From positions 1 through 42,366 of the forward strand of contig CADBNW010000194.1 of assembly GCA_902796025.1 (NCBI GenBank): DNA of 42,366 bases. The letters are read 5' to 3'. The translations under genes and the position numbers were made by a program. The DNA is from an uncultured Eubacteriales bacterium. Its GTDB lineage: Bacteria; Bacillota; Clostridia; Christensenellales; Aristaeellaceae. The notes beneath the pieces are model-generated. The model had not been told where the DNA came from, searched no databases, and was given only the letters and a program-made list of their open reading frames with translations. This document shows positions 18,056-39,794 of this stretch, piece after piece. How positions within the stretch are numbered: position 1 is the first letter of the stretch; each line of letters starts with the position of its first letter.

Positions 18056-18185
18056 GCAGAAGGAGAAATCGTTAAATCCAGCTAAATTAGCTGAGATTAC
18101 TAAGCCATACGCGCGCGGGCTGCCTGCGAAGCTTTTATTGGGCGCGCGCCGGGCTCGCTACAGGCGCAAAGCGTTCTCCTTCTGC
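18056..18185. repeat. 130-bp element with 12-bp perfect terminal inverted repeats
   Basis: GCAGAAGGAGAA (18056-18067) and TTCTCCTTCTGC (18174-18185) are perfect inverted repeats. Inside lies a second palindrome, CAGCTAA-A-TTAGCTG (18079-18093), and GC-rich self-complementary sequence (GGCGCGCGCC). No target-site duplication is evident. It sits between two convergent operons and holds no gene. It may be a small non-autonomous or REP-like intergenic repeat, or just an RNA fold. Confidence 0.5.
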
Positions 18186-25012: not shown

Positions 25013-25067
25013 GGGTTGCTCCTCGATCCTTTTTTGCCCATGGAACGGGCGAGTTTTCATCTTGTAT

Positions 25068-25096
25068 ATTTTACAATAAGGCTTCATAAACGTCAA
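25068..25096 (-). promoter_or_regulatory. Sigma-A promoter of the minus-strand surface-protein operon
   Basis: On the minus strand TTGACG (25096-25091) and TAAAAT (25073-25068) are separated by 17 bp. Transcription would start near 25061, giving a ~50-nt leader to the ATG at 25012. Confidence 0.85.
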
Positions 25097-25244
25097 GCAC
25101 CATATTAATGTAGAATCCCTTAAACGGGCAGGAAAACGAGACAAATTTGCATTGCCAAAAAATAAAATTTAAGTTAAGAACAGGATAAGCAGAGGCGGGC
25201 CGTCCAAGGGGCGGAAAAAATGGACGCCTTGCTGAAATCTCTCC
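25097..25244. other. Intergenic region between two divergent promoters
   Basis: The gene-free stretch 25013-25382 holds two back-to-back promoters. The 148 bp between their -35 boxes are AT-rich near the minus promoter (including AAAAAATAAAATTTAAGTTAA) and GC-rich near the plus promoter. No tRNA, riboswitch or clear operator is recognised. Confidence 0.6.
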
Positions 25245-25382: not shown

Positions 25383-26336
25383 ATGAAGAAAAACGTAAAG
25401 GCTGCGTCCGACGCGCGAAACGAAACGGCAGACGCCATGGAGCATAAGGCGCATAAGCGCAAAACGCCTGCGGGAAAGGGCAGGTGGTTCAGGACGCTTA
25501 TGCGCCTGTGCGCTTTTGTGCTTGCGCTTGTACTGCTCTTAGGCGGCCTTGTCTACTGGTACAGCAGCTACACCAAGACCCATTACGAGATCACGTTTTA
25601 TCAGGAAACCTCCAAAAAGGTAAGTCGGAACATCCGCCTGATCGTACTGGCCGATCTGCACAACAGGGAATACGGCGAAAACAACCAGACCCTGATCAGC
25701 GACATCACTGCCCTGAAGCCCGACGTCATTTTGTTTGCGGGCGACATGGTGAATTTTAAAAGCGACGATTACGAGGCGTCGCTCAGGCTTGTGAAGGCGC
25801 TTTCGGACGTGGCCCCCTGCTACGGCGTGATGGGCAACCACGAAAACGAGCGCGTGTATCTTGCCGCTGACAGCGCCCTGCCCGCCCGCTTTGAGGAGGC
25901 GGGGCTAAAGCTTTTAAGGAACACAAGCGAAACCATCACCGTCGGGGCGGACAGGCTGCAGCTCATCGGCGTCGAGGGCACCAGCTACAGCTTTGAGGAG
26001 TACGGCGGAAGGCGCTTTATGGATAAGGCCCAGATCGATCCCAAGGCGTACAGCGTGGTGATGGCGCACATCCCCATTCTATTTGACGAGCAGCTTTCAA
26101 AGTACGATTTTGATTTGGGCATCGCCGGGCACACCCACGGCGGCATCGTGATACTGCCCCGCCTTGGCGGCCTGTACAGCGCGGAGGAGGGGCTGGATCC
26201 AACCTACGATTCGGGAAGGTTCACGCTAACCCGCGGGCAGACCCTGCTGATCAGCAGAGGGCTTGGCGATTCCAGTCAGATCCCCCGCATAAACAATATG
26301 CCCGAGCTCATGGTGATCGACATCAACTGGTGCTAA
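25383..26336 (+). CDS. Membrane-anchored metallophosphoesterase (YkuE/YaeI-like)
   Basis: A 317-residue protein with a basic cytoplasmic start, one membrane helix (about 40-60) and an extracytoplasmic calcineurin-like phosphoesterase domain. Metal ligands are visible in order: D91 and H93 (LADLHN), D121 (FAGDM), GNHE, MAHIP and GHTHGG. Relatives include UDP-diacylglucosamine or phospholipid phosphoesterases of the YaeI/YkuE type. As first gene of the polymer locus it might act on lipid-linked intermediates, which is inference. The ribosome site before the ATG at 25383 is weak, but no better start is near. The Wzz-like gene follows after 63 bp. Confidence 0.9.
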   Translation: MKKNVKAASDARNETADAMEHKAHKRKTPAGKGRWFRTLMRLCAFVLALVLLLGGLVYWYSSYTKTHYEITFYQETSKKVSRNIRLIVLADLHNREYGENNQTLISDITALKPDVILFAGDMVNFKSDDYEASLRLVKALSDVAPCYGVMGNHENERVYLAADSALPARFEEAGLKLLRNTSETITVGADRLQLIGVEGTSYSFEEYGGRRFMDKAQIDPKAYSVVMAHIPILFDEQLSKYDFDLGIAGHTHGGIVILPRLGGLYSAEEGLDPTYDSGRFTLTRGQTLLISRGLGDSSQIPRINNMPELMVIDINWC

Positions 26337-26399
26337 AGCGGCTTTTGCGGGTCTTTGCGAAATAAATCCCGCATGGCGGCATGGATGAAAAGGAGACGA

Positions 26400-27749
26400 A
26401 TGAAAACGGAAAGGCAAAAAAAGTGGCTGCAGCCCCAGAACATCCCTTTTTCCGGCGGCGCCGGAAGGATCTGGATCGGCCTGCGAAAGAGCTTTGAGGC
26501 CTTTGGAAGGCATAAGGCGCTGACGCTCATCCTGTTTTTGGCGCTGTGCCTTGCGTGCTGCGCGTTTTTCTACATCAAAAGCCTGAACACGGCAAGCGCG
26601 GTCGTCTCGATGGAATACGAGGAGGCCTCAAGGGGGCTTACCCCAAGTCAGACGCGCTTCAACATTTACGAGATCCAAAGCGCGGACGTCATGGAGCGCC
26701 TGATCGCTTACGCGGGCCTCGAGGGGAAGATCAGCCCCGAGGAGCTTGGCCGCTGCGTGCGCGTTCGGGCCACCCACAGCAGGAACGTAAGCGGCAGCGT
26801 GAATTTTATAAGCACCTCGTACGTTATCGAATTTACCCGCAGCGACAAGATCCAAAGAAGAAGCGCGCAGGCGATGCTGTCCCTTTTGTGCAAGGCCTAC
26901 CGGGAATTCTTTGTGGAGCGCTACGGCATAAACCATTCCATTTTGAATTTCGACATCGGAGACCTCAAGTTCAACGACGAATATCTGCTGACGGTGGATC
27001 TGTTGGAGCTAAAAAGCGAGCAGCTGCGCAAATACGTGCAGCTTTGCAGGCGCAGCAACAAAAACTACCGCGACCCAGATACCGGGATAAGCTTCTCGGC
27101 GCTTGAGCAGCGCATCAATAACTTCTTCGATTACGACCTTGCGCGCCTTCGCTCCTACATCATAGAAAACGGCATCGCAAACGACCAAAGCGCACTGAGC
27201 GCCATGCTGGATTACAAGATCCGCATGGACAGGCTGGAGCACGACAAGCTGATGGCGGCCTACGACGAGGACAACAAGGGCATCGAGATCTACGATACCG
27301 CGATGAGCGCCGTCGTGATGATCCCGACGGAGGACGTGACCATGCGCTACTATATGTCCAGGACCAAAACCGGCATGGACAACCTGGCGCTGCATGCGGA
27401 CGCGCAGCTTGCCGGCGCTACGGAGCGGACAAAGGAGATCGAGTACAAAAAGTATCTGATCGGCAAAATGCAGTCCGGAACGCCAAAGGCTGAGCAAAGG
27501 GAAAAGGCCGACGCCATGATACGGCAAATGACCTCCACGCTGGACAGCCTGGCCAGCGACATCCGCACGGTGGACAGCGCCTTTGCAAGCTACAAGGCGC
27601 GAAACTATCTGAGCTTCCACGACGAGGGCGCGCGCTTTCTGGACAGGATCTCGCCCTTACAGAGCGTTGGCATCGCGGTGCTTGCCGTGTTTGCGGTCTT
27701 TGCGCTCGTGCTATTAAAAAACCTCGCCAAAAGAGATAAGGCAGTATGA
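26400..27749 (+). CDS. Wzz-like polysaccharide chain-length/co-polymerase protein
   Basis: A 449-residue protein with the Wzz topology: a membrane helix near 40-60 (LILFLALCLACCAFFYIK), a long mostly helical extracytoplasmic domain, and a second helix near 420-440 (VGIAVLAVFAVFALVLL). Sequence similarity to characterised Wzz/YveK proteins looks weak, so the assignment rests on topology and on its place before another Wzz-like gene, a Wzy-like and a Wzx-like gene. No cytoplasmic kinase domain is attached. The ATG at 26400 follows AAGGAG by 5 bp; the frame extends to a TTG at 26355 without a ribosome site. It overlaps the next gene by 4 bp. Confidence 0.7.
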   Translation: MKTERQKKWLQPQNIPFSGGAGRIWIGLRKSFEAFGRHKALTLILFLALCLACCAFFYIKSLNTASAVVSMEYEEASRGLTPSQTRFNIYEIQSADVMERLIAYAGLEGKISPEELGRCVRVRATHSRNVSGSVNFISTSYVIEFTRSDKIQRRSAQAMLSLLCKAYREFFVERYGINHSILNFDIGDLKFNDEYLLTVDLLELKSEQLRKYVQLCRRSNKNYRDPDTGISFSALEQRINNFFDYDLARLRSYIIENGIANDQSALSAMLDYKIRMDRLEHDKLMAAYDEDNKGIEIYDTAMSAVVMIPTEDVTMRYYMSRTKTGMDNLALHADAQLAGATERTKEIEYKKYLIGKMQSGTPKAEQREKADAMIRQMTSTLDSLASDIRTVDSAFASYKARNYLSFHDEGARFLDRISPLQSVGIAVLAVFAVFALVLLKNLAKRDKAV

Positions 27750-29554
27750 AGCAGTTCAGCATTTTAAGGTATATCAGGCAGTTCAGCCTGCTCATTTTGC
27801 TGATCGCCTTTGTGGGGTCGATCGCGATCTACCGCTACGGCAAATCGCAGCAGCGCTTTATCGCAACGGCGGTGATACGCTATACGAACGTCGGGGCCAA
27901 GGACGGCTATACCCCGGACGGAAGCCCATTGAACGTGGAGGAGATCTATTCCTCTACGGTGATCGACGCGGCGCTGAAGGATCTGGGCTATCAGGCCAAC
28001 GTCGACTCCATCCGCTCCAACTGCTACGTGGAGGAGGTCATCCCCGAGGACCAGAAAAAGCTGAACGAGGTGCTTTTGGAAAAGGGCGAGGAGACCAGCT
28101 ATAAGGCGGACACCTACATGGTGCACTTTGTGGGCGGAAACAGCACCAGCGTAAGCTACGCCTGGAACGTGCTGGACGCGATCATCAAAAACTACTGCGA
28201 ATTCTACACGGAAAAATACGTGGAGGAGCAGCTGCAAAACAATGCCGCCTCCGCCCTCAGCGAGGGAGAGTACGACTTTATCGAAAGCGTGCAGATCCTG
28301 GATGACGCGGTTCGGGAGATGCTGGACTATCTGATGAGCCAGCGCTCGGCAAGGCCGTATTTCCGCTCCATCGAGACAGGCTACAGCTACAGCGACCTGT
28401 ACAACATCTATCATCTGCTCTACAGCTACGAGATCCCCGGCCTCTACGCCGCCATTTTGCAAAACGCGGAAAGCGGCGACATCGAGGTGCTGAAAAACCG
28501 CATGACGAAGGACTGCGAGGATCTGACGCTGTCAATCGAAAATCGGCAGCAGCAGGCCCAGCAGCTCAAAAAGCTGATCGACAACTACAGCCAACGCAAC
28601 AAGGAAATGATGGATTACCACTACCACAATTCCAACAACGTGGACAGCGGCAGCGAGTATATCCTAAAGGACGTGGAGTACGACCGGGAATTCAACGACA
28701 AGGAAACCACCTACGACGGACTCGTGCAGGAATACGTGAACCTGAACATCGCCATACGCCAAAGTGAGATCGAAAAAGAGCATCAGCAATATCTGCTTGG
28801 CGTATTTGAAGAGGCGCTTAACGCCAAAAACCGCAAGACCGTGAGCGCCAGGGAACTGCAGGACAAGATCGACCGCTGCGCCGAGCTGGTGACAGAGTAC
28901 TATCAGTACGTGGAATCGACCGGGCAGGAGCTGAACCGCTACCTCAGCGCGGATTACCTAAGCATGGTAAGCAGCATAAACGTAAACGCCACGGTGAATC
29001 TTAAGCTTTACCTTGCGATCGCCCTTGTATTGTTCACGCTGGTCGGCGTGGTGGGCGCGGTTTTGCTTGGCAGGGCGCTTGACTTTATCGACTACTTCCT
29101 GTACGTGGACAAGACCGTGGGACTGCCAAACCGCGCGCGCTGCGACGTGTACATCGGGGAAAAGGCGGACCGGCTGCTGGAGGAAAACTTCTCCTGCCTT
29201 GCCATGAAGATGGAATCGCTGAACGACATCAGCCGAGCCTACGGGCGGGAGACGGGGGATCAGGTGCTAAGGGACTTTGCGCAGATCGTCAAAAGCTTTG
29301 GCGACCTCTACGGCTTTGTGGGGCATAACGGGGGCGGAAACTTTATCGCCTTTTTCCCCAACTGCCCGGCAAGCAAGGTGAATATCATCCTGCAGGCGAT
29401 AGACCGCCAGGTTTCGGAGTACAACCGGCGCAATCCCGGCCACGAGATCCGCTACTGCCACGGCAAGGCCGTTTCCAGCGACGACGGCGCGTTTGAGATC
29501 AGGCAGCTGCTGCGCCTTGCGCTGCAGCGGATGAACCCCGCCGGGGCGGCCTGA
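27746..29554 (+). CDS. Wzz-like protein fused to a degenerate GGDEF domain
   Basis: A 602-residue protein. Helix one (about 10-29) and helix two (about 419-442) bracket a large helical, coiled-coil-prone extracytoplasmic domain, as in Wzz. The cytoplasmic C-terminus (about 450-602) is GGDEF-like: VDKTVGLPNR near 454-463, LNDISRAYGRETGDQVLRDF, then GGGNF at 529-533 where GGDEF should be. The metal-binding Asp region reads MKMES, and no RxxD inhibitory site stands at the expected spacing. Cyclase activity is therefore unlikely; a sensing or scaffold role is possible. It overlaps the previous gene by ATGA. Polymer length or export could be tied to a nucleotide signal through this domain, which is inference. 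Confidence 0.8.
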   Translation: MKQFSILRYIRQFSLLILLIAFVGSIAIYRYGKSQQRFIATAVIRYTNVGAKDGYTPDGSPLNVEEIYSSTVIDAALKDLGYQANVDSIRSNCYVEEVIPEDQKKLNEVLLEKGEETSYKADTYMVHFVGGNSTSVSYAWNVLDAIIKNYCEFYTEKYVEEQLQNNAASALSEGEYDFIESVQILDDAVREMLDYLMSQRSARPYFRSIETGYSYSDLYNIYHLLYSYEIPGLYAAILQNAESGDIEVLKNRMTKDCEDLTLSIENRQQQAQQLKKLIDNYSQRNKEMMDYHYHNSNNVDSGSEYILKDVEYDREFNDKETTYDGLVQEYVNLNIAIRQSEIEKEHQQYLLGVFEEALNAKNRKTVSARELQDKIDRCAELVTEYYQYVESTGQELNRYLSADYLSMVSSINVNATVNLKLYLAIALVLFTLVGVVGAVLLGRALDFIDYFLYVDKTVGLPNRARCDVYIGEKADRLLEENFSCLAMKMESLNDISRAYGRETGDQVLRDFAQIVKSFGDLYGFVGHNGGGNFIAFFPNCPASKVNIILQAIDRQVSEYNRRNPGHEIRYCHGKAVSSDDGAFEIRQLLRLALQRMNPAGAA

Positions 29555-29595
29555 ATAATTTAGAATAAACGCTATTACATAACGGGAGAGACCGA

Positions 29596-30963
29596 ATGGC
29601 ATTTGCGCGAACGCAGACGGACGCAGGCCCCCTTGCGGGGACGCTAAGCAAAAGGAAGGCGCCTCCGCGTGCCGTGACCTTTCTGGCCGTGTGCTGCACC
29701 GTCTTTGCCGGACTGGGCGACTGGAAGGTATTGAACGAGGCGCTGGGCGGCCTGCCCAAGGTGATCGCGCTGGGCGCGATCGTGTGCGCGTTCATGAATT
29801 TTCTGGTCGAGGCGGACTTTGACAAATTTAAAAAGGCGGCACGCTATCTTCCGCTTTTTCTGTCGGTGATCGCACTGTATACGCTTGTCAGCATGTACAT
29901 CTGGATCACCAGCTTCACGAATATGGCGGTGATCAGCCGGGGCGCACAGAAGATCCTGTTTCAGCTGATCACGATCATCTACGCCGTCTGCATGTGCTAT
30001 CTGTTTGAAGCGCGCGCGGTGAACGTGCTGTTTTTCTGCATGTGCATGACAAACGGAGCCATCATGCTGCTTGAGATGCCAAAGTATGGCCTTGTGGAAA
30101 GCGTTTCGTCCGTGGTCACCTGCGTGCTGACGTTTGGCGAAGCCGAGGGCTACGTACGGGCGCTTGAGATTCACGACATCACCTTTCTGTTTGGGCAGTT
30201 TCTGCTGTACTATCTGATGTTTGCGCCTAAGGAGAGCAAAAGGGAAAAGCACATTCGCTGGCTGAACGTTTTTTTGTGCCTGTTTTTCATGCTGGTCGGC
30301 TTAAAGCGAAGCGCGCTGCCCGCGGTCGCGGCGGTGGCGGTGTTTGTGTTTATCGCAAGGCAGGTCAAAAGGCCGGACCGGCTGGTGCTTGGCACGGGCA
30401 TCACGCTGTTTGCGTTTTTGTACGTCTTTTTGTACCTGGTGCGCACGGGGATCCTGGTGGATTTTCTGGAATCCCTTGGGGTCGATCTGATGGGACGCCG
30501 CCTTTTGTGGAGCCTGCCAAATCCCTATTACGAGTTTTCGCCGCTTTGGAAGGGGCTTGGCTTTGAGGGCGTGACGGAACTGATCGGCCGCTGGTACGAT
30601 TCGGGCATATTGAACCACCCTTACCCCCTGCACAACGATATCCTGAAGCTGTTTATAGAGCTTGGCGCGCCGGGCTTTACGCTGTGGGCGCTGATCAACT
30701 ACATCTGGTATCCCTGGTACTGGACAAAACGCTGCGGGGCGAAATGCGGCCTGCTCTACATGGCGCTGCTTTGCTACATGACCGTTACCTACCTTACGGA
30801 CAACACCGCGCTGTATTTCTGGAGCTCGGTGGGGCTTAGGCTGATACCGATGAGCTTCAGCTACCGAAGGGACGATACCACGCGCAAAGAACTGTGGCGG
30901 CCTCCGAGCGCGGAGGAGGCCGCCAGCGAGATCTGGGCCATCGAAATGAGAGGGAGTATGTGA
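29596..30963 (+). CDS. Wzy/O-antigen-ligase-like polysaccharide polymerase
   Basis: A 455-residue polytopic membrane protein with about ten helices. Near the middle is VGLKRSALPAVAAV, matching the conserved Arg-containing segment of Wzy_C/O-antigen ligase proteins. A large extracytoplasmic loop follows, containing HPYPLHNDILKLFIELG, which resembles the HN-D-x-L-x-x-E motif of this family. It is expected to polymerise lipid-linked repeat units on the outer face of the membrane. The ATG at 29596 follows GGGAGAG, and 41 bp separate it from the preceding gene. Next to it lie Wzz-like and transferase genes, supporting the role. Confidence 0.8.
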   Translation: MAFARTQTDAGPLAGTLSKRKAPPRAVTFLAVCCTVFAGLGDWKVLNEALGGLPKVIALGAIVCAFMNFLVEADFDKFKKAARYLPLFLSVIALYTLVSMYIWITSFTNMAVISRGAQKILFQLITIIYAVCMCYLFEARAVNVLFFCMCMTNGAIMLLEMPKYGLVESVSSVVTCVLTFGEAEGYVRALEIHDITFLFGQFLLYYLMFAPKESKREKHIRWLNVFLCLFFMLVGLKRSALPAVAAVAVFVFIARQVKRPDRLVLGTGITLFAFLYVFLYLVRTGILVDFLESLGVDLMGRRLLWSLPNPYYEFSPLWKGLGFEGVTELIGRWYDSGILNHPYPLHNDILKLFIELGAPGFTLWALINYIWYPWYWTKRCGAKCGLLYMALLCYMTVTYLTDNTALYFWSSVGLRLIPMSFSYRRDDTTRKELWRPPSAEEAASEIWAIEMRGSM

Positions 30964-30964
30964 T

Positions 30965-32149
30965 ATGCCGCGAAAGATCATAAGGCTTCTGGACTATGCA
31001 AAACACCTCGCGCTTTGCCTGCTGCTTTGGCCGGCGGCGGCAATCCTGCGGCGCGTAAAGCCCGCCTATCGCGGCCTGTGGCTGGTTTCGGAGCGGGGCA
31101 ACGACGCGCGGGACAACGGCTACTGGTTTTTTCGCTATCTGAAAACGCAGCATAAGGAGCAAAACGCCTGCTACGTGATCGCCCCCTCAAGCCCTGATCA
31201 CAGCCGGGTAAAAGACCTTGGACAAACGGTAAAGCGCGGCTCCCTTCGGCATTATCTGATGTATATGGCGGCGGACTATCTCGTGGGCAGCCACGTGCAG
31301 CCTGCTTCGCCGGAGCTTATGGTCTTTTACCACCTGCGCCAGCTCGGCTTTCGCCCCCGGGGCAAGCAGGCCTTTTTGCAGCACGGGATCATCAAGGACG
31401 AAATGCAGTGGCTTCGCTATCCAAGATTAAAGATCGACTTTTTTGCAAGCGGCGCCAAGATGGAGTACGATTACCTGGAAAAGGAATTTGGTTTTCCCAA
31501 GGGCGTTGTGCGCTATACGGGGCTTTGCCGCTTTGACAACCTGATCCGGGGAAAGGCAAAAACGAATCAGATCCTTGTCATGCCGACCTGGCGCGGCTCC
31601 CAGTACCCAAAGGGCGAGGCCTTTACGCAAACGGCCTTTTACCGGCAGTTCCAGTCCCTTTTGAACAGCCAGGAGCTGCTTGACTTGCTTAAGGAATACG
31701 ATCTTAAGCTCATCTTCTATCCGCACATCGAAATGCAGGGGGAGCTTGGGCGCTTTACCTCGCCAGATCCCAGGATCGTGCTTGCAGACTATCGCTCATA
31801 CGACGTGCAGACGCTTTTGATGAACTGCCGCGCGCTGATCACGGATTACTCCAGCGTGTTTTTCGACGTGGGCTACATGGAAAAGCCGGTGCTCTACTAC
31901 CAGTTCGACCAGGAGGAGTTTCGCCGCTTCCACTACCAGGAGGGCTATTTCTCCTATGAGCGGCACGGCTTCGGCCCGGTTGTAAAAACGCAGGAGGCGC
32001 TGCTGGAAGCCCTTAGCGCCCTGGCGAAAAACGGCTTTGAGATGGAGGAGGAGTACCACAAGCGCCTCGAGGCCTTCTTCCCGCTGCGGGACGAAAACAA
32101 CTGCGAGCGCACCTATCAGGCGCTTTTGGCGCTGCGGGGGAAAGCATGA
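30965..32149 (+). CDS. CDP-glycerol glycerophosphotransferase-family protein (TagB/TagF-like)
   Basis: A 394-residue protein of the teichoic-acid glycerophosphotransferase superfamily. Diagnostic segments are FLQHGIIKDEM (LQHG), VMPTWRGSQYP, IFYPHIEMQ and ALITDYSSVFFDVGYMEKPV. In characterised relatives this fold transfers glycerol- or ribitol-phosphate from a CDP carrier to a lipid-linked acceptor. Its presence suggests the polymer carries polyol-phosphate decoration or linkage. An N-terminal amphipathic or hydrophobic stretch may bind the membrane. It starts 1 bp after the polymerase stop and overlaps the next gene by ATGA. The CDP-polyol synthase is not in this window. Confidence 0.88.
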   Translation: MPRKIIRLLDYAKHLALCLLLWPAAAILRRVKPAYRGLWLVSERGNDARDNGYWFFRYLKTQHKEQNACYVIAPSSPDHSRVKDLGQTVKRGSLRHYLMYMAADYLVGSHVQPASPELMVFYHLRQLGFRPRGKQAFLQHGIIKDEMQWLRYPRLKIDFFASGAKMEYDYLEKEFGFPKGVVRYTGLCRFDNLIRGKAKTNQILVMPTWRGSQYPKGEAFTQTAFYRQFQSLLNSQELLDLLKEYDLKLIFYPHIEMQGELGRFTSPDPRIVLADYRSYDVQTLLMNCRALITDYSSVFFDVGYMEKPVLYYQFDQEEFRRFHYQEGYFSYERHGFGPVVKTQEALLEALSALAKNGFEMEEEYHKRLEAFFPLRDENNCERTYQALLALRGKA

Positions 32150-33252
32150 TGCCTGTATTGTACGACGAAGGAAAGGACAGGGTATTGTCCAAGGTCCATC
32201 CCTTTCACGACTGTGGATTCTTGAGCGGGGGATCCATCTTCCAAAACCCCGCGCAGGTGGACGTGTCGGTGATCGTGCCCTGCTATAACGCCGCGCGCTT
32301 TCTGCCCGGCTGCATCAAAAGCCTTGCCGCACAGACAGCCGCCTGCTCTTACGAAGTTTTGCTGGTAGACGACGGCTCTACAGACGGCAGCTTTGAGCTT
32401 ATCGAGGAAGCGGCAAAGACGCACGAGGGCTTTGTCTGCGTGCATCAGCAAAATCAGGGCGCGGCGGCGGCGCGAAACACGGGCATGCGCATGGCGCGGG
32501 GCGAATACCTGCTCTTTGTGGACGCGGACGACGTGGTGTCGCCCTCCTACGTTCAGGCGTTATATGACTGCGTAAGAGCCGAGGGGGCCGAGCTTGGCGT
32601 TTGCGCCTGGTACGCGTTTACGGGCGAAGACCGGCGCTACAAGACGGTGCGCTATGAAGGCGGGACCGGAACGGAACAGCTGAACGGCACGCCCTGGGGG
32701 AAGCTGTTTCACCGCAGGCTCTTTGAGCGTCTGCTGTGGCCCTCCGGCTACTGGTACGAGGACACGGTGCTGGCCTTTTTGGTCTATCCCCGCGTTCGGC
32801 GCGTGGCCTGCACCGACAAGTGCGAATACGGCTACCGCTCCAGCGCGCAAAACGCCACGCATTCGGGAAGGAAGTCGCCGAAAGCCCTTGACAGCCTGTA
32901 CATCACCCACCTTGCGCTGAAGGGCATGGAAAAAATGGGACTTGAGGGGTGGCTTAACAGCGCCTTTGGGCGAAAGCGCCTGGTGGATCAGTTTTATCTG
33001 AACCAGTGCAGGATCCAAAGGCTGCCCCGCGCATGTCGGAAGGAGCTGTTCAGACTGCAAAGCGCCTATTTTAGGCAATTGCCGGTAGCTAAGGAAAAGC
33101 AGCGCCTTGGCTCCCTGTATGCCCTGGCGCTAAAGAAGGGAAACGCGCCCCTTGGGCTTCTCTGCGCGCGCCTTGAAAAGGTGCATAAGGCCCTGGGCCT
33201 TTTGTCCCTTCGCGCAGCGTCACTTTGGAAACGGAAGGAGCATAACGCATGA
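32146..33252 (+). CDS. Family 2 glycosyltransferase
   Basis: A 368-residue GT-A fold glycosyltransferase. After an unusual ~38-residue N-terminal extension come VSVIVPCYNAARFLPGC, LLVDDGSTDGSF and LFVDADDVV (the D-x-D metal site), followed by an acceptor region with WYEDTVLAF. The extension (containing HPFHDCGFLSGG) is not part of the GT2 core and I do not recognise it. It probably adds one sugar to the lipid-linked repeat unit on the cytoplasmic face. The start overlaps the preceding stop, and the stop overlaps the next start, both by ATGA. Confidence 0.9.
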   Translation: MMPVLYDEGKDRVLSKVHPFHDCGFLSGGSIFQNPAQVDVSVIVPCYNAARFLPGCIKSLAAQTAACSYEVLLVDDGSTDGSFELIEEAAKTHEGFVCVHQQNQGAAAARNTGMRMARGEYLLFVDADDVVSPSYVQALYDCVRAEGAELGVCAWYAFTGEDRRYKTVRYEGGTGTEQLNGTPWGKLFHRRLFERLLWPSGYWYEDTVLAFLVYPRVRRVACTDKCEYGYRSSAQNATHSGRKSPKALDSLYITHLALKGMEKMGLEGWLNSAFGRKRLVDQFYLNQCRIQRLPRACRKELFRLQSAYFRQLPVAKEKQRLGSLYALALKKGNAPLGLLCARLEKVHKALGLLSLRAASLWKRKEHNA

Positions 33253-34361
33253 TCCGGGTATTGCATTCGGTCAGCAACATGGCCCGGGCGGGGATCGAAA
33301 CGATGCTGATGAACTACTACCGCGAGATCGACCGGGAGCAGCTGCAGTTCGATTTTCTTGCCAACAAGCCGATCCCCGGGGAGTACGACGAGGAGATCCG
33401 CTCCCTGGGCGGGCGGGTGTTCGTAAGCCCCGGCCTAAACCCCCTGCACTACCCGGCCTACAGGCGCTGCGTCAAAACGCTTTTGGCGGACAACCCGGAA
33501 ATAAAGATCCTGCACGCGCACAACGAGGCGATGGGCTATTACGCCCTGCAAAGCGCAAAGGACGCGGGGCTTCCCGTGCGCATCGCCCACGCGCACAACA
33601 CCCGCATCATCCGGGATTACAAGTATCCGCTGAAGCTCGTGTGCAAGGCGCTTTTGCCCGGCGCGGCCACGGACTACTGGAGCTGCGGCAGAGACGCGGG
33701 CATCTATTACTACGGCAAAAAGCGCTGGGAGAAGGAAGGCTTTATCCTGCACAACGCGATCGCCCTGGAGCGCTTTTGCTATCAGGAGGAGTTAAGAGAG
33801 CGCTTAAGGCGCGAGCATGGACTTGCGGACGCCTTTGTGATCGGGCACGTGGGGCGCTTTAACCTGCAAAAGAACCACAGCCGCCTGATGGATATTTTTG
33901 CGGCGGTCAGCCAGATCGAGCCCCGGGCAAGGCTCTTGCTGATCGGGGTGGGGGAACTGGAAAAGGCCACCCGGGAGAAGGCTTGCGCGCGTGGCCTTAC
34001 GGACAGGGTGCTGTTTGCCGGGCAGACGGCAAACGTAAATCAGTGGTATCAGGCCATGGATTGCTTCGTGCTGCCCTCGCTGTTTGAGGGGCTGCCGGTC
34101 GTGGGCGTGGAGGCCCAGGCTGCTGGCCTGCCCTGCTTTTTCTCGGACTGCGTGACGGACGAGATCCTGCTTGCCCAAGATTCCTGCCGCGTGCCGCTTG
34201 AGGCAGATGACGGAGAGTGGGCAAAAAGGATCCTGTCTGTAAAGGAGCGCGCGATCGACAGGACGAAGGGCACGCAGCTCGTCCGCAGTGCGGGCTTTGA
34301 CATCCACACTGAGGCTAAGAAGCTGCAGGAGATCTATCTGAAAAAGGCGCAGGGAAAATGA
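33249..34361 (+). CDS. Family 4 glycosyltransferase (EpsF-like)
   Basis: A 370-residue GT-B glycosyltransferase. The N-terminus VLHSVSNMARAGIETMLMNY matches the EpsF-type acceptor domain. The donor-binding half has GHVGRFNLQKNH and the PSLFEGLPVVGVEAQAAGLP stretch containing the family glutamate pair (E-x7-E). It probably adds a hexose or N-acetylhexosamine to the repeat unit; the sugar cannot be read from sequence. It overlaps the preceding GT2 gene by 4 bp. A 47-bp gap with its own ribosome site (AAAGGAGAAG) leads to the next glycosyltransferase. Confidence 0.93.
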   Translation: MIRVLHSVSNMARAGIETMLMNYYREIDREQLQFDFLANKPIPGEYDEEIRSLGGRVFVSPGLNPLHYPAYRRCVKTLLADNPEIKILHAHNEAMGYYALQSAKDAGLPVRIAHAHNTRIIRDYKYPLKLVCKALLPGAATDYWSCGRDAGIYYYGKKRWEKEGFILHNAIALERFCYQEELRERLRREHGLADAFVIGHVGRFNLQKNHSRLMDIFAAVSQIEPRARLLLIGVGELEKATREKACARGLTDRVLFAGQTANVNQWYQAMDCFVLPSLFEGLPVVGVEAQAAGLPCFFSDCVTDEILLAQDSCRVPLEADDGEWAKRILSVKERAIDRTKGTQLVRSAGFDIHTEAKKLQEIYLKKAQGK

Positions 34362-34408
34362 TCTGAAACCCCTTCCGGCTAAAACGATCTTACGTAAAGG
34401 AGAAGCAC

Positions 34409-35614
34409 ATGCCTGCAAGGCAAAACGGGACGCGCAGGGAAAGACAACTGCGCCTTGCGATGATCGGCCACAAATTTATCCCCTCCCGAAACGGCGGGGT
34501 GGAGGTGGTGGTCACAAACCTCGCGCCGGAGCTTTTGAAACTGGGCGACGAGGTCACCTGCTATAACCGAATGGACGAGGACGCAAAGGCCCGGGGCAAA
34601 AAGAACCTGCCCCGCGAATACAGGGGCGTTAAGATGATCTGGACGCCCACGATCCGCAAAAAGGGGCTTGCGGCCATGTCGTCCTCCCTGATCGCCACGG
34701 TGATGGCCGCCTTTGGGCGCTATGAGCTTATCCACTATCACACGGAGGGGCCCTGCGCGCTATGCTGCCTGCCCCGGATGATGGGCAAAAAGATCGTGGT
34801 CACGGTGCACGGGCTGGATCACATGCGGCAAAAGTGGGGCCGCCTGGCCTCCGCCTACATTTTGCGGGGCGAAAGGGCAGCCGTGAAAAACGCAAGCGCT
34901 ATCATCGTTTTGAGCAAGGACGTGCAGCGGTATTTTCTTGAAAAATACGGGCGCGAGACCATCCTGATCCCAAACGGCATCGAGCCTGCTGAGGTCAGGC
35001 CCGCAGATGAGATCACAAAGCGCTTTGGCCTTGGCAGCAGGGATTACATCCTGTTCCTTGGCCGCCTCGTGCCGGAAAAGGGCATCCATTATCTGATCGA
35101 GGCGTATAAGGCGCTGAAGACGGATAAGAAGCTGGTGATCGTCGGCGGCACGTCGGACACGGACGACTATGTGCGCCGCCTGTACGAAATGGCAGATAGC
35201 GCCCCCTCGATCATTTTTACCGGCTTCCAGCAGGGCGAGCTTCAGGCGGAGCTGTACTCCAACGCCTACTGCTACGTGCTGCCCAGCGATCTTGAGGGCA
35301 TGCCGCTTACGCTGCTTGAGGCCATGAGCTACGGCTGCTGCTGCCTGACCAGCGACATCGGCGAATGCGTGGACGTGACGGGCGATGGGGGACTGAGCTT
35401 CTCGAAAGGAGACGTCAAAGCGCTGCGGGAGAGGCTGCAGGAACTGTGCGATCATCCGGAGGTGGCGCAGTCGTACCGGCAAAAGGCCCTTGAAGTGATT
35501 TCTCAAAAATACACCTGGCCGGATATCGCCCGTAAAACCCAGGCGCTGTACAAAAAGGTATTACAGCGCAACGCAGATGCGGGCGCAAATGGCATAAGCG
35601 GGGAGAACGCATGA
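34409..35614 (+). CDS. Family 4 glycosyltransferase with DUF1972-like N-terminus
   Basis: A 401-residue GT-B enzyme. The N-terminal segment AMIGHKFIPSRNGGVEVVVT and EVTCYNRM resembles the DUF1972 region of rhamnosyltransferase-like proteins. The donor half carries LFLGRLVPEKGIHYLIEAY and LPSDLEGMPLTLLEAMSYG. It probably acts on the same lipid-linked repeat as its neighbours. A strong ribosome site (AAAGGAGAAG) precedes the ATG at 34409. It overlaps the flippase gene by ATGA. DUF1972 membership is recalled from the motif and not checked. Confidence 0.92.
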   Translation: MPARQNGTRRERQLRLAMIGHKFIPSRNGGVEVVVTNLAPELLKLGDEVTCYNRMDEDAKARGKKNLPREYRGVKMIWTPTIRKKGLAAMSSSLIATVMAAFGRYELIHYHTEGPCALCCLPRMMGKKIVVTVHGLDHMRQKWGRLASAYILRGERAAVKNASAIIVLSKDVQRYFLEKYGRETILIPNGIEPAEVRPADEITKRFGLGSRDYILFLGRLVPEKGIHYLIEAYKALKTDKKLVIVGGTSDTDDYVRRLYEMADSAPSIIFTGFQQGELQAELYSNAYCYVLPSDLEGMPLTLLEAMSYGCCCLTSDIGECVDVTGDGGLSFSKGDVKALRERLQELCDHPEVAQSYRQKALEVISQKYTWPDIARKTQALYKKVLQRNADAGANGISGENA

Positions 35615-37209
35615 ACGAAGCACATAACGCGGGCATAAAGCTGGAGCGCGGCAAAAACGCAGCGCGCAACGTCGTCTTCGGCGGCGCGTACCGGCTTTAT
35701 GCGATGCTGGCCCCCTTCGTGATGAGGACGGTGCTCCTTTATCAGCTGGGCGTCGACTTTCTGGGGCTGGACAGCCTGTTTGCCTCCATCCTGCAGGTAT
35801 TGAACCTTGCGGAGCTGGGCGTGGGCAGCGCGATGGTGTTCAGCATGTATAAGCCCATCGTCGAGGACGACAGGGAAAGCCTGTGCGCGCTTTTGAACCT
35901 GTACCGGAAGATCTATTACGGGATCGGCCTTGTCATTCTGGCCGCGGGGCTTGCGATCTCGCCCCTGGTGCCGACCCTCGTAAAGGGCGCGGTGCCGGAG
36001 GGGATGAGCCTTCGCACCCTGTACTACATGAACCTTGGCGGCACGGTGCTGTCCTACTGGGTGTTTGCCTACAAGGGCTGTCTGTTCGACGCGCATCAGC
36101 GTCTGGATGTAGCCCACAAGATCCACCTTGTTGTGGATACGCTCAAGTACGCCGTGTCCATCCTGCTGGTGTGCGTATACCACAACTATTACCTGTACCT
36201 CATCGCGCGCCTGGGCTTTGAGATCGTGTACAATGTCTGCCGCTTTTACTTTGCGGGCAGGTACTATCCGAATCTTAAGCCCTCCGGCGCGCTCGATCCG
36301 GAGAAGAAGCGCCTGATCCTTTCGCGGGTGCGGGATCTGTTCACCGCAAGGCTCGGCGGCGTGGTGATGAACGCGGCGGACGCGCTGGTCATATCCGGCT
36401 TTTTGGGGCTGCACGAGCTTGCGGTATACCAGAACTACTATTTTGTGGTTTCCTCCCTGCGGGCGTGCCTGGAGGTGATTTTGTCCTCCTCCCTTGCCGG
36501 CATCGGAAACAGCCTGCTCACCGAGACCAGCGAAAAGAACTACTGGGACTTTCGCAGGCTCACATTTCTGTTTTGCTGGATCACGGGGCTTTGCTGCTGC
36601 ATGCTGATGGCGCTGTACCAGCCCTTTATGCGCCTTTGGACGGGGGAAGAGCTGCTGATGCCCATGAGCGTTGTGGTGAGCCTTGTGGTGTACCTGTATG
36701 TGGTCGAGGTAAACCGAATCACCAACATCTACAAGGACGCCGCCGGCATCTGGTACGAGGACCGCTTCCGCCCGCTCACGGCAGCCGTCGTGAACGTGCT
36801 TTTGAACGTGATCACCGTGCGCTATATCGGCATCTTCGGCGTCATCTTTTCGACGGTCGTCGCCTTTGCGGCGGTGGAGCTGCCCTGGCTGATCTTAAAT
36901 CTATTCCGGCTCGTCTTTCCGCGCGGGTATGCGGGGGCTTACGTAAAAAGCCTGCTTTGGTACCTGTCAGTCACAGCCGCAGTGTGCGCCGCGACCTACG
37001 GCGTGTGCGCGCTGTGGAGCCTGACGCTTATCCCCACCATTATCGTAAGGGCGCTTATCTCCTTTTGCCTGCCAAACCTTCTGTTCCTTCTCATCTACAG
37101 GCGCACGGAGGAATTTCAGGGCTCTTTGGAGCTGGCAGACCGTCTGACCCGCGGAAAAATCAAGCTGCTCAAGCGCCTGAAGGCTGACACAGGAGGTACG
37201 CGCGCATGA
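35611..37209 (+). CDS. Wzx-type polysaccharide flippase (MATE/MOP superfamily)
   Basis: A 532-residue integral membrane protein with about 12-14 helices. The opening NVVFGGAYRLYAMLAPFVMR and LGLDSLFASILQVLNLAELG are typical of Wzx/RfbX-like transporters that flip undecaprenyl-linked repeat units. A central region (ADALVISGFLGLHELAVYQNYY) and the cytoplasmic basic tail (RGKIKLLKRLK) agree with that family. It overlaps the genes on both sides by 4 bp, so it belongs to the same transcript. Confidence 0.9.
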   Translation: MNEAHNAGIKLERGKNAARNVVFGGAYRLYAMLAPFVMRTVLLYQLGVDFLGLDSLFASILQVLNLAELGVGSAMVFSMYKPIVEDDRESLCALLNLYRKIYYGIGLVILAAGLAISPLVPTLVKGAVPEGMSLRTLYYMNLGGTVLSYWVFAYKGCLFDAHQRLDVAHKIHLVVDTLKYAVSILLVCVYHNYYLYLIARLGFEIVYNVCRFYFAGRYYPNLKPSGALDPEKKRLILSRVRDLFTARLGGVVMNAADALVISGFLGLHELAVYQNYYFVVSSLRACLEVILSSSLAGIGNSLLTETSEKNYWDFRRLTFLFCWITGLCCCMLMALYQPFMRLWTGEELLMPMSVVVSLVVYLYVVEVNRITNIYKDAAGIWYEDRFRPLTAAVVNVLLNVITVRYIGIFGVIFSTVVAFAAVELPWLILNLFRLVFPRGYAGAYVKSLLWYLSVTAAVCAATYGVCALWSLTLIPTIIVRALISFCLPNLLFLLIYRRTEEFQGSLELADRLTRGKIKLLKRLKADTGGTRA

Positions 37210-38216
37210 ATGAAGCGCCCAAATGCGATAAAACGCCCCTGATCTCCGTGATCGTTCCCGTCTACAAGGTCGAAAAGTATTTGAACCGCTGCGTGGATAG
37301 CCTCCTTGCCCAGACGTATCAAAACCTCGAGATCATTTTGGTGGATGACGGCTCGCCCGACCGCTGCCCCGAGATCTGCGACCGATACGCCCAGAGGGAT
37401 GAAAGGGTGCGGGTGATCCATAAGGAAAACGGCGGCCTCTCCGACGCAAGAAACGCCGGGATCGACGCAGCTACGGGGGAATACCTGGCCTTTGTGGACT
37501 CGGACGACTACGTGGACGCTGGGCTGTATGATGCGCTCATGCACGCGCTGCTTCAAAGCGGGGACAGGCTGGCCCTGTGCGGCTTTCAAAAGGTGACGGA
37601 CGAGGGAGCGCTTATCAAAAAAACGCCCATGCGCTTTCCCGCCCGGCTCAGCGAGGACGAATTCTGGTATCAGCTCTTTTTCCCGTACCGGGATCTTGGC
37701 ACCGTGGCCTGGAACAAGCTGTATCACAAATCGCTGTTTGAGGATCTGCGCTTTCCAAAAGGCGCGATCCATGAGGACGAATGGCTGGTGCACCATTACG
37801 TAAGCAGGGCGGGGCAGGTGAGCGTGGTAAACGAGTGCCTGTATTTCTACGTGGTAAGGGGCGGCAGCATCACCGCCCAGCCCCTGTCGCCCAGATCCTT
37901 AAGCATTCTGGAGGCGTTCAGTCAGCGCCTTGCCTACTTTGCGGAAAAGGGAAAGGCGCGCGCCGTGACGCTTGGCATGCGAAATTACGCGCGCTACGTC
38001 GTGTTCTTTCTGGACGACTGGCGGGGGCGTAAGGAGCTGACAAAGGAAAAAAGCAAGGTCAGGACGGATTTCCTTCTCGAGATCGCGCGCTATTTGGGCT
38101 TTGCGGGGAAGGCGGACCGCGCCTACTGGTTCGCGGCGCTTAACTGCCCGATGCTTTTACGCCGCGTCATACGCCTAAAAGAAAAGCGCGCGCGAAAGCG
38201 GGCACAAAGCACTTGA
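37206..38216 (+). CDS. Family 2 glycosyltransferase
   Basis: A 336-residue GT-A glycosyltransferase with ISVIVPVYKVEKYLNRCVDS, ILVDDGSPDRC, ENGGLSDARNAG and LAFVDSDDYVD (D-x-D), then the acceptor-side IHEDEWLVHHY. It is close to the WcaA/EpsJ type. The basic C-terminus (LKEKRARKRAQS) may bind the membrane surface. It overlaps the flippase by ATGA and is the last gene of the long overlapped run. The stop codon lies inside the -35 box of the promoter that drives the next gene. Confidence 0.93.
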   Translation: MNEAPKCDKTPLISVIVPVYKVEKYLNRCVDSLLAQTYQNLEIILVDDGSPDRCPEICDRYAQRDERVRVIHKENGGLSDARNAGIDAATGEYLAFVDSDDYVDAGLYDALMHALLQSGDRLALCGFQKVTDEGALIKKTPMRFPARLSEDEFWYQLFFPYRDLGTVAWNKLYHKSLFEDLRFPKGAIHEDEWLVHHYVSRAGQVSVVNECLYFYVVRGGSITAQPLSPRSLSILEAFSQRLAYFAEKGKARAVTLGMRNYARYVVFFLDDWRGRKELTKEKSKVRTDFLLEIARYLGFAGKADRAYWFAALNCPMLLRRVIRLKEKRARKRAQST

Positions 38217-38240
38217 CAACGGCAAAATAAACGCTATACT
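38213..38240 (+). promoter_or_regulatory. Internal promoter for the priming glycosylphosphotransferase
   Basis: TTGACA (38213-38218) and TATACT (38235-38240) lie 16 bp apart and overlap the end of the upstream GT2 gene. The leader of ~55 nt contains a small GCCC-AAC-GGGC hairpin before the AAGGAG ribosome site. Confidence 0.85.
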
Positions 38241-38300
38241 GTCTAAGACCGCTTTCATTTTATCGCCCAACGGGCAAGGCGGCTGCAAGGAGATCATAGT

Positions 38301-39794
38301 ATGTACAAGAGAAAAACCAGCGGATGGTCGCAGCATCTGGATTTTATGGGTCTGGACATCCTTTGTCTGGAGCTGGCCTGGCTGGGCTCTGCCATGATCC
38401 GCACCTCGTGGCAGGCGATGCTTCGGGACGCGACCTTCTGGGTGCTGTGCGTGGGCATGGCCTTTATCGACCTTATGATCATGGTACTGATGGACGCCTA
38501 CCACAGCGTCATCCGCCGCGACTCCTACAAGGAACTGCGCGGGGTGCTCAATCAGGCCGTGTACCTCACGGTGGGCCTCGTGGTGTTTGTGCTGCTTCAG
38601 CGAAACGAGAGCATCAACATCGTCGAGGTGCTTATGCCCACGCTGCCCATCTACATTTTGCTGTGCTTCAACATGCGCGTTTTGTGGAAGGAGCATCTGC
38701 GTAAGCGCCTGCACCTTAAAAACCACACGGGCATGCTGGTGGTTGCCAGAAAGGACCGCCTGAAGGACGTGATCACCGCCCTGGTCAATCACAACTACAA
38801 CAGCTACCGCTTCGTGGGCGCCGCGCTTTTGGAAAATGACGGGGATCTGGGCGAGGCGGAAAAGGAGATCGCCCACATCAAGCACGGCGATCAGGAGATC
38901 GGGGCGCTGAATGTTGTTGCTACGCGCGACACCCTCATCCAATACCTCATCAACAGCTGGGTGGACGAGGTGTATCTGGATACCCCCGCGGGGGAGCAAA
39001 TGCCGGTCGAACTGATCAACGAGATCATGAGCATGGGCATCACGGTGCACGTCGCCATGAACAGCATGGATCAGCTGGAGGCCCGCCACAAAAACGTGGA
39101 GTGGGTCTGCGGCCAGGCCACCATCACCACCAGCCTTGGATACGTATCGGGCCGCGACCTGCTTTTGAAGCGGCTGATGGACGTGCTGGGCGGCCTTGTG
39201 GGCAGCGTCTTTACGGTGCTTTTGACCCTGATCCTTGGCCCCTTCATCTACGCCGCGTCGCCCGGGCCCATCTTCTTTAAGCAATTGCGCATCGGCGAAA
39301 ACGGCAGGCGCTTTTGGATCTACAAATTCCGCAGCATGTATCTGGACGCGGAAAAGCGCAAGCAGGAGGTGGCCGCCGCCGACGGGCAGCAGGATCATCT
39401 GATGTTCAAAATGGAGCACGATCCGCGCATCATCGGCCAGGTCCAGCGCCCAGACGGCAGCTGGAAAAAGGGCATCGGCGGCTGGATCCGCGATCTGTCG
39501 CTGGACGAGTTTCCCCAGTTCTTTAACGTGTTGAAGGGCGACATGTCCCTGGTCGGCACGCGCCCGCCCACGCTGGACGAGTGGGAAAGGTACGAGCCCT
39601 ACCACCGCGGCAGGATGTCCACCAAGCCCGGCATCACCGGCCTTTGGCAGATCAGCGGCCGCAGCAAGATCCGCGACTTCAACCAGGTGGTGCAGCTGGA
39701 CCGCGAATACATCGAAAACTGGTCGCTGCTGCTGGACTGCAAGATCCTGCTTCGCACCGTCTGGGTCGTGATCACCCGGCGCGGGGCGATGTAA
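38301..39794 (+). CDS. Polyprenyl-phosphate sugar-1-phosphate transferase (priming enzyme)
   Basis: A 497-residue WcaJ/WbaP-like protein. The N-terminal half has several membrane helices and a Rossmann-like cytoplasmic region. One helix near 290-315 precedes the catalytic domain: SPGPIFFKQLRIGENG, WIYKFRSMYLDAE, LSLDEFPQFFNVLKGDMSL, VGTRPPT and PGITGLWQISGRS. It transfers the first sugar-1-phosphate to undecaprenyl phosphate, starting each repeat unit. Its place at the end of the locus, with a separate promoter, is notable because priming genes often come early. A strong AAGGAG site precedes the ATG at 38301. Confidence 0.94.
   Translation: MYKRKTSGWSQHLDFMGLDILCLELAWLGSAMIRTSWQAMLRDATFWVLCVGMAFIDLMIMVLMDAYHSVIRRDSYKELRGVLNQAVYLTVGLVVFVLLQRNESINIVEVLMPTLPIYILLCFNMRVLWKEHLRKRLHLKNHTGMLVVARKDRLKDVITALVNHNYNSYRFVGAALLENDGDLGEAEKEIAHIKHGDQEIGALNVVATRDTLIQYLINSWVDEVYLDTPAGEQMPVELINEIMSMGITVHVAMNSMDQLEARHKNVEWVCGQATITTSLGYVSGRDLLLKRLMDVLGGLVGSVFTVLLTLILGPFIYAASPGPIFFKQLRIGENGRRFWIYKFRSMYLDAEKRKQEVAAADGQQDHLMFKMEHDPRIIGQVQRPDGSWKKGIGGWIRDLSLDEFPQFFNVLKGDMSLVGTRPPTLDEWERYEPYHRGRMSTKPGITGLWQISGRSKIRDFNQVVQLDREYIENWSLLLDCKILLRTVWVVITRRGAM

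Follow-up and report, generated by a model that had tools for sequence, protein, structure and literature searches.

How is a Wzy-type polysaccharide pathway controlled when its co-polymerase carries a relative of the diguanylate cyclases in the place where Wzc carries a kinase? This question is raised by a fusion protein of 602 residues encoded at 27746..29554 (+ strand, ATG start) of contig CADBNW010000194.1 from an uncultured Eubacteriales bacterium, a stretch of 42,366 nucleotides that was analysed as a whole and is called the window below; the genome is a metagenome-assembled genome (MAG) with 94% completeness and 5.7% contamination. We lean towards the view that the protein is a regulatory co-polymerase linked to cyclic di-GMP (c-di-GMP), in which a dead GGDEF-derived domain stands in for the Wzc kinase. 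We do so because a c-di-GMP-family domain appears to have been gained twice at this site, its catalytic residues have been lost while selection has kept the domain, no kinase was found alongside it, and in one branch of the family a cyclase and phosphodiesterases are encoded next to the fusion. As regards the window protein, the proposed link to c-di-GMP would follow from its family.

Hydropathy places membrane helices of the fusion at residues 6-24 (27761..27817, +) and 413-431 (28982..29038, +), corresponding to helices 14-34 and 419-453 of an AlphaFold model, and both approaches give a Wzz/Wzc-type co-polymerase topology in which about 390 extracytoplasmic residues, including long helices, lie between the two. 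The GGDEF-derived domain follows at residues 453-599 (29102..29542, +) and is recognised by Pfam (E 2.5e-14; 53.8 bits, cut-off 23.8), by the model and by Foldseek. The model, built from an alignment of eight sequences, has a mean predicted local distance difference test (pLDDT) of 82.1 and a predicted template-modelling score (pTM) of 0.47; within the GGDEF domain the means of 10-residue blocks range from 82 to 92 across residues 451-590, and helix 419-453 runs uninterrupted from the membrane into this domain. The best solved structures returned by Foldseek are diguanylate cyclases (5euh, TMt 0.76; 3ign, 0.74; the FimX GGDEF domain 3hva, 0.73). Several Wzc chains are also found among the top 50 (E ~6e-6); the alignment to 9r62_K, at rank 32, spans 624 columns with E 6.2e-6, yet the template-modelling score of these chains is only ~0.2. 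The window protein carries a confidently modelled GGDEF-fold domain behind a Wzz/Wzc-like co-polymerase topology, as a preliminary description of this DNA, made from the letters alone, had proposed. Membership of the Wzz family PF02706 was considered and rejected, as the window protein has no match at E<=1; weak matches of 17-19 bits, below the cut-off of 25.5, occur in 4 of 10 proteins scanned.

To define what the domain has lost and kept, we compared 89 fusions, obtained by dereplication at 90% from 106 (27 from sampled genomes and 79 from named records, with some contigs in both), with 28 canonical GGDEF domains of the fusion genomes; a further alignment, A2, holds 25 of the 27 sampled fusions (L035 and L122 excluded, L111 shortened). 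In the window protein NGGGNF (29327..29344, +; GGGNF at residues 529-533) stands in place of xGG[DE]EF, and K488 (29207..29209, +) occupies the position of a metal-binding Asp, which we take to be D327 of PleD; the alignments bear out both replacements, which had already been read from the window. The GG[DE]EF motif was found in none of the 106 homologues and the catalytic Glu is retained in 0/89. At the metal-Asp position the 89 fusions have D in 22, K in 31 and R in 15 (K or R in 46/89), and at the second metal position, G531 in the window, D in 11/89 and E in 3/89; with K488 and G531, the window fusion lacks both metal ligands of an active cyclase. The Arg of R-x-GG is likewise gone from all 89, with Tyr there in 67/89, and Tyr 597 and Lys 600, the latter presumably a phosphate contact in canonical domains, are present in all 28 canonical domains and kept by 1% and 8% of the fusions, respectively. 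The two guanine-contacting positions, which we assume to correspond to N335 and D344 of PleD, are better preserved: the first is N in 72/89 and S in 13/89 fusions, the second D in 80/89 and N in 9/89. The window has S496 and D505 at these positions. The residue in register with the Asn that contacts guanine in active cyclases is S496, and not the one in the ‘ND’ of NDISRAYGRETGD; the earlier statement that the flanking motifs are well kept therefore holds only in part, D505 being retained and the Asn, which 72 of 89 homologues have kept, being lost in the window.

Alongside these losses, the family has acquired invariants of its own. N528 is present in 88/89 fusions and lies outside the pattern of the canonical set, R586 is present in 87/89, R501 replaces a His in 90%, and D467 is found in 100%, the last three being likewise absent from the canonical set; R443 in the juxtamembrane linker is found in 100% of fusions, at a position where the canonical rows are not comparable. 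The ratio of nonsynonymous to synonymous substitution rates (dN/dS) between the window and its near relatives is ~0.10-0.22 for the GGDEF domain (four pairs, a fifth being saturated) and 0.07-0.17 for the co-polymerase part (five pairs), with synonymous sites close to saturation. The loss of catalytic residues, the family invariants and the low dN/dS together argue that the domain is maintained under purifying selection although the residues of cyclase chemistry are gone, in keeping with the earlier suggestion that the fold is retained for another job. Judged by its residues alone, the domain is predicted to be catalytically dead.

The fusion is neither confined to this genome nor decayed elsewhere, as a survey of other Clostridia made clear. 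Neither of the two outcomes that the earlier description had named as refuting it was seen, since the C-terminal region has the GGDEF fold and the fusion is not a decayed sequence of a single genome. Full-length copies are present in 27 of the genomes examined, from many families. Among 100 relatives, seven besides the window's genome have a full-length fusion; counting matches of any extent at E<=0.001 gives 27, mostly through the GGDEF domain only; six genomes of the same genus gave 0/6 matches to the fusion. Among 391 Clostridia, 60 match at 1e-20, 20 of them full-length (the window's genome and 19 others), and in a sample of 398 genomes of the phylum, Clostridia included, the window's own protein is the only full-length match at E 1e-30, two others being partial. 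A scan of named records confirmed 115 places, of which 80 were retained; by title these are mostly ruminant and gut Clostridia MAGs, with one Lachnospiraceae bacterium MD329, and the whole fusion open reading frame (ORF) is present in 79, the remaining one running off a contig end. This patchy presence suggests that the fusion has been transferred or lost along with its polysaccharide cluster. Three Spirochaetales MAG contigs (L186, L187, L189) also carry the fusion, either through cross-phylum transfer or through a binning error, and long C-terminal extensions were seen in L111 (8678-11317, +; 880 residues) and L168 (10001-12532, +; 844 residues).

The position of the GGDEF-derived domain is that of a kinase. 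In the passages of PMC8285477 consulted, the Wzc kinase domain comprises residues 452-701, and the GGDEF-derived domain of the window protein begins at residue 453. A Wzc-type bacterial tyrosine kinase (BY-kinase) would carry a tyrosine tail; the last 20 residues of the window fusion contain no Tyr, and its GGDEF domain replaces the kinase. Profile TIGR01007 is above its cut-off in 22/27 fusion genomes and, among the matches listed, none shares a contig with a fusion at a distance of 20 kb or less. A phmmer search with two BY-kinases of these genomes, which detect each other at E 1e-42 and 5e-46, gave no match at E<=1e-3 in 107 fusion loci with 3321 ORFs, the reach of both searches being set by short contigs that show 5-40 kb of DNA around the 27 fusions.

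In a sister clade, the place of the GGDEF-derived domain is taken by an EAL domain. ORFs of ~730-764 residues that match the co-polymerase part only are co-polymerase-EAL proteins (6/6 of those scanned with Pfam), and 11 of these were gathered with a local EAL profile. Nine of the 11 have lost three catalytic acids: other residues stand at the second Asp of DDFG, at the Asp of KxD and at the Glu of xEGVE. In these nine, moreover, the alignment has a gap where LEITES has its second Glu. L123 and L124 are less degraded, yet neither has this Glu, and in L124 the second Asp of DDFG is an Asn. All 11 retain an Asn, a Lys and, within the ExLxR motif, E and R, whereas the L of this motif is F in eight. 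One such protein, L125, was modelled (pLDDT 81.6), and Foldseek pairs the model with EAL structures, among them that of FimX bound to c-di-GMP, at TMt up to 0.85. Part of PMC12564702 describes the same retention of E and R in this motif for FimX and LapD, two c-di-GMP receptors with degenerate EAL domains.

A tree of the co-polymerase part was built from 80 rows: 39 GGDEF carriers (a random draw from the 89 fusions plus the window, all under 680 residues), 11 EAL carriers, 15 domain-free proteins (including L230, which is cut by a contig end) and 15 first co-polymerases, the separate proteins encoded next to the fusion. All rows with GGDEF fall into a single group and all rows with EAL into another, each with support of 100/99, and domain-free rows lie between the two groups; some end branches are long. 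The simplest reading would be one gain each of GGDEF and EAL at one site, and two separate gains of c-di-GMP-family domains at the Wzc kinase site suggest that here a Wzy-type pathway is under c-di-GMP-linked control.

Is c-di-GMP available to such a protein? Twenty-five of the 27 fusion genomes have a GG[DE]EF-coding word within another GGDEF match (compared by eye; for G196, 65% complete, this does not cover its second GGDEF match), so fusion genomes are, on this count, able to make c-di-GMP. In the window's own genome, a protein with an intact GGDEF motif is encoded on another contig side by side with a GGDEF-EAL protein whose EAL motifs are intact. In the class sample, genomes with the fusion more often have EAL (19/20 vs 226/371; Fisher p 9e-4, ignoring kinship). 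A PilZ protein as a rival receptor was rejected, since 0/27 fusion genomes have a PilZ match.

The physical linkage of fusion and c-di-GMP genes is strongest in one branch. From the fusion alignment we assigned the 27 genomes to sub-clade A (13 genomes, including the window's) and sub-clade B (14 genomes). EAL counts use 74 of 76 rows, two fragments of genes already counted (in G042 and G013) being excluded, and ‘near’ means at most 20 kb between start positions, so that one EAL gene of G417, 20.1 kb from the start of the fusion and 18.3 kb from its end, was counted as not near. In sub-clade B, 20/28 EAL genes lie near the fusion, in 12/14 genomes, with 0.41 expected from the visible DNA of those contigs. 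A cyclase with an intact GGDEF motif is present in the cluster of 8/14 sub-clade B neighbourhoods; these proteins have ~765 residues (one has 803), and in the one scanned, that of L103 (17050-19347), the only match beyond GGDEF is a sub-threshold one to dCache (19.1 bits, cut-off 45). The only two GGDEF matches in each of G070 and G151 are the fusion and the cyclase of its cluster, and both EAL genes of each genome also lie near the fusion; the numbers for G279 are identical, and there the fusion is presumed to be the second GGDEF match. Riboswitches of the c-di-GMP-I class lie between the cyclase and an EAL gene in three of 12 sources scanned (L104, L109 and L137, the last a separate contig of G402, whose fusion sits on a different one); there is no c-di-GMP riboswitch within the window. 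In L103 ~145 residues without a Pfam match follow the GGDEF domain, and by eye the in-cluster cyclases of L103 and L104-L110 have intact GGDEF motifs with no RxxD immediately before them, so product inhibition is possibly missing.

Several observations weigh against a c-di-GMP link. In sub-clade A, to which the window belongs, just 1/46 EAL genes is near the fusion, with 0.53 expected from the visible DNA, only 5/13 of these genomes showing at least 36 kb around the fusion. Across the 80 named loci, an EAL gene occurs in 12 and another GGDEF gene in four, in neighbourhoods of up to 10 kb per side that are sometimes ended by contig ends and are too short to include the sub-clade B cyclase; the window's nearest named relatives, L138-L153, have neither gene in their flanks. 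Since the cluster is inherited together with the linkage that it shows in sub-clade B, the corresponding p-value counts a small number of events many times over. Nor is the linkage specific to the fusion, since c-di-GMP genes lie near 4/15 domain-free co-polymerases (two of the four near-identical); for the same reason, a tie to c-di-GMP may extend to the whole pathway family. One fusion genome, G259, has no EAL; another, G024 (79% complete), has none either, and the further GGDEF match listed for it contains no GG[DE]EF word. Finally, there is no RxxD I-site before the motif in the window, as noticed earlier, and it is present in 1/89 fusions vs 7/28 canonical domains of the same genomes, so the known binding mode of PelD and BcsE is unavailable.

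Other explanations of the domain have to be weighed against the same residues and neighbourhoods. GGDEF domains dimerise, and the domain could be a purely structural module for oligomerisation or docking that replaces the kinase ring and senses nothing. The disappearance of both catalytic and allosteric residues would fit such a role, in which the invariant or nearly invariant R443, D467, N528 and R586 could be interface residues; we nevertheless consider it unlikely, given that an unrelated fold of the same signalling system, EAL, was adopted at the same site and that sub-clade B has c-di-GMP enzymes in the same cluster. It is rather unlikely, too, that the domain senses another guanine nucleotide (GTP, GDP or ppGpp) and couples polymer assembly to the energy or stringent state of the cell. 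The retention of N at the N335 position (72/89) and of D at the D344 position (80/89) despite the lost catalytic Glu would agree with this, as would the basic residues at the metal-Asp position (46/89) and R501 in place of His (90%); but the window itself has S496 where the Asn should be, the canonical Tyr 597 and Lys 600 are mostly gone, and neither the EAL swap nor the cyclase and EAL linkage of sub-clade B would be explained.

Weak or altered catalysis appears very unlikely. The degenerate GGDEF domain of GdpP hydrolyses ATP, which offers a precedent, and some fusions do have D at the first metal position (22/89) or D or E at the second (11/89 and 3/89), yet the catalytic Glu is kept in 0/89 and the window lacks both metal ligands. 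That the fusion is a decaying accident can practically be dismissed: apart from the loss of catalytic residues itself, nothing speaks for it, and its full-length occurrence in 27 genomes from many families, the whole ORF in 79/80 named loci, the low dN/dS, the family-specific invariants and the single clade formed by GGDEF-carrying fusions in the tree of the co-polymerase part all speak against it.

If the protein is a c-di-GMP-linked regulator, as we favour, the loss of the classical I-site leaves two candidate inputs: its pseudo-GGDEF domain would read the state of the c-di-GMP system either by binding the messenger in a remodelled pocket or through a docked cyclase or phosphodiesterase acting locally. 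Such an input could alter the packing of the pseudo-GGDEF domains beneath a membrane ring, a change that the helix through the second membrane segment would relay to the extracytoplasmic part, where it might license or stop Wzy and so set the amount and length of the polymer. For the signal, ligand binding, ring formation and the effect on Wzy alike, this scheme is what we infer.

Degenerate GGDEF receptors, a co-polymerase with a PilZ domain, degenerate EAL receptors and local control by a single cyclase are all already known, as far as the source passages cited here go. One of the closest known systems is Wzc, of the polysaccharide co-polymerase class PCP-2a, with its split counterpart PCP-2b (for example CapA/CapB), which has two membrane helices, a large extracytoplasmic part, a cytoplasmic domain right after the second helix and a Wzy partner; unlike it, the fusion has a GGDEF-derived domain in place of the kinase, lacks Tyr at its C-terminal end and has no BY-kinase detected nearby. 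PelD, of Pseudomonas and of Bacillus cereus (pelDEADAFG), likewise sits in the membrane, serves a polysaccharide system and carries a degenerate GGDEF domain, and it is acted on by a cyclase and a phosphodiesterase (part of PMC7112168); however, PelD binds c-di-GMP through an intact RxxD I-site and partners PelE, PelF and PelG, whereas the fusion has no RxxD and its pathway is of the Wzy type. BcsE (DUF2819), as covered in part of PMC8461298, also belongs to a polysaccharide system and has a GGDEF-like domain devoid of catalytic residues, but it is soluble, keeps its I-site and serves cellulose synthesis. Alg44, in the same portion of that source, is a co-polymerase with a c-di-GMP input domain, although this domain is PilZ, a family without a match in the fusion genomes, and its partner is Alg8. 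FimX and LapD resemble the sister co-polymerase-EAL proteins in having lost catalytic acids and kept the E and R of ExLxR, but they are not co-polymerases, and the window protein carries GGDEF rather than EAL. Lastly, in the NfrB-DgcJ system of E. coli a single cyclase acts locally on one polysaccharide enzyme, there through an MshEN domain on a glycosyltransferase rather than on a co-polymerase (part of PMC8669469).

The genes around the fusion place it in a Wzy-type pathway. From 25383 to 39794 of the window, successive genes overlap or leave gaps of at most 84 bases, and all are on the + strand. The cluster begins with a calcineurin-like metallophosphoesterase of 317 residues (25383..26336; YaeI/LpxG-like; Pfam PF00149, E 8.4e-15), which scores 97.4 bits with NCBIfam PRK11340, under its cut-off of 188; a homologue is present in 71/80 named fusion loci, and the gene also adjoins co-polymerase-EAL pairs. 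It is followed by a first co-polymerase of 458 residues (26373..27749, alternative TTG start at 26355), which has hydropathy helices at residues 44-62 and 429-447 and no cytoplasmic domain, and whose ORF the fusion start overlaps by 4 bases. Its profile is similar to the co-polymerase part of the fusion, it forms a separate clade, and it too has a homologue in 71/80 named loci. Directly downstream of the fusion lies a Wzy-type polymerase of 455 residues (29596..30963; Wzy_C PF04932, E 7.9e-9, above cut-off), with a homologue in 78/80 named loci; the order and spacing of metallophosphoesterase, co-polymerase and Wzy genes differ between loci. The remainder comprises a CDP-glycerol glycerophosphotransferase-family protein (30965..32149; PF04464, E 1.5e-40), GT2 glycosyltransferases at 32146..33252 and 37206..38216 and two Glycos_transf_1/Glyco_transf_4 glycosyltransferases at 33249..34361 and 34409..35614 (all Pfam), and an initiating sugar-phosphate transferase (Bac_transf, 38301..39794; PF02397, E 3.3e-57). 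A 532-residue membrane protein with seven hydropathy helices (35611..37209), which has no Pfam or NCBIfam match and relatives in 12/27 neighbourhoods, the window included, is a possible candidate for the missing flippase. The fusion is not surrounded by a synthase-dependent cluster of the pel or bcs type; Wzy, initiating transferase and glycosyltransferase genes are found instead.

Outside the cluster, a 1760-residue ORF at 19862-25144 (-), divergent from the polysaccharide operon, is surface-protein-like and has two Flg_new_2 (InlB B-repeat) stretches. An RT-5 RNA (RF03026; 75.9 bits, gathering threshold 45.7) at 18064-18169 (-) lies just downstream of a 383-residue ORF (18225-19376, -), which consists of two similar halves with, by eye, the motif YLRFYY[ND]HxGWWNTRxYVV; this ORF has no Pfam match, and its sole PHROG match has E 0.036.

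Finally, our analyses allow a broader, more tentative proposal: a co-polymerase family of Clostridia may twice independently have taken up a c-di-GMP enzyme domain, GGDEF and EAL, in the place of the kinase, with subsequent decay of catalysis. Its members might then be the first c-di-GMP receptors within a regulator of a Wzy-dependent polymerase. The GGDEF version would bind by a new, non-RxxD mode, and the polysaccharide cluster of one lineage would enclose a self-contained circuit of cyclase, phosphodiesterase and riboswitch. Open-access titles and abstract openings, the scope of our literature search, which left subscription papers and domain-architecture databases outside, contain no description of a co-polymerase-GGDEF or co-polymerase-EAL protein. 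According to the portion of PMC12802240 (2025) consulted, the post-translational control of Wzx/Wzy-dependent pathways is incompletely understood, whereas that of synthase-dependent pathways, often via c-di-GMP, is well characterised. If the family is c-di-GMP-linked, it would open the Wzy pathway to direct allosteric control, in Clostridia of ruminants and the gut that are known here mainly from metagenomes, and would offer a natural experiment, with similar proteins that hold a kinase, a GGDEF or an EAL module at one and the same position.

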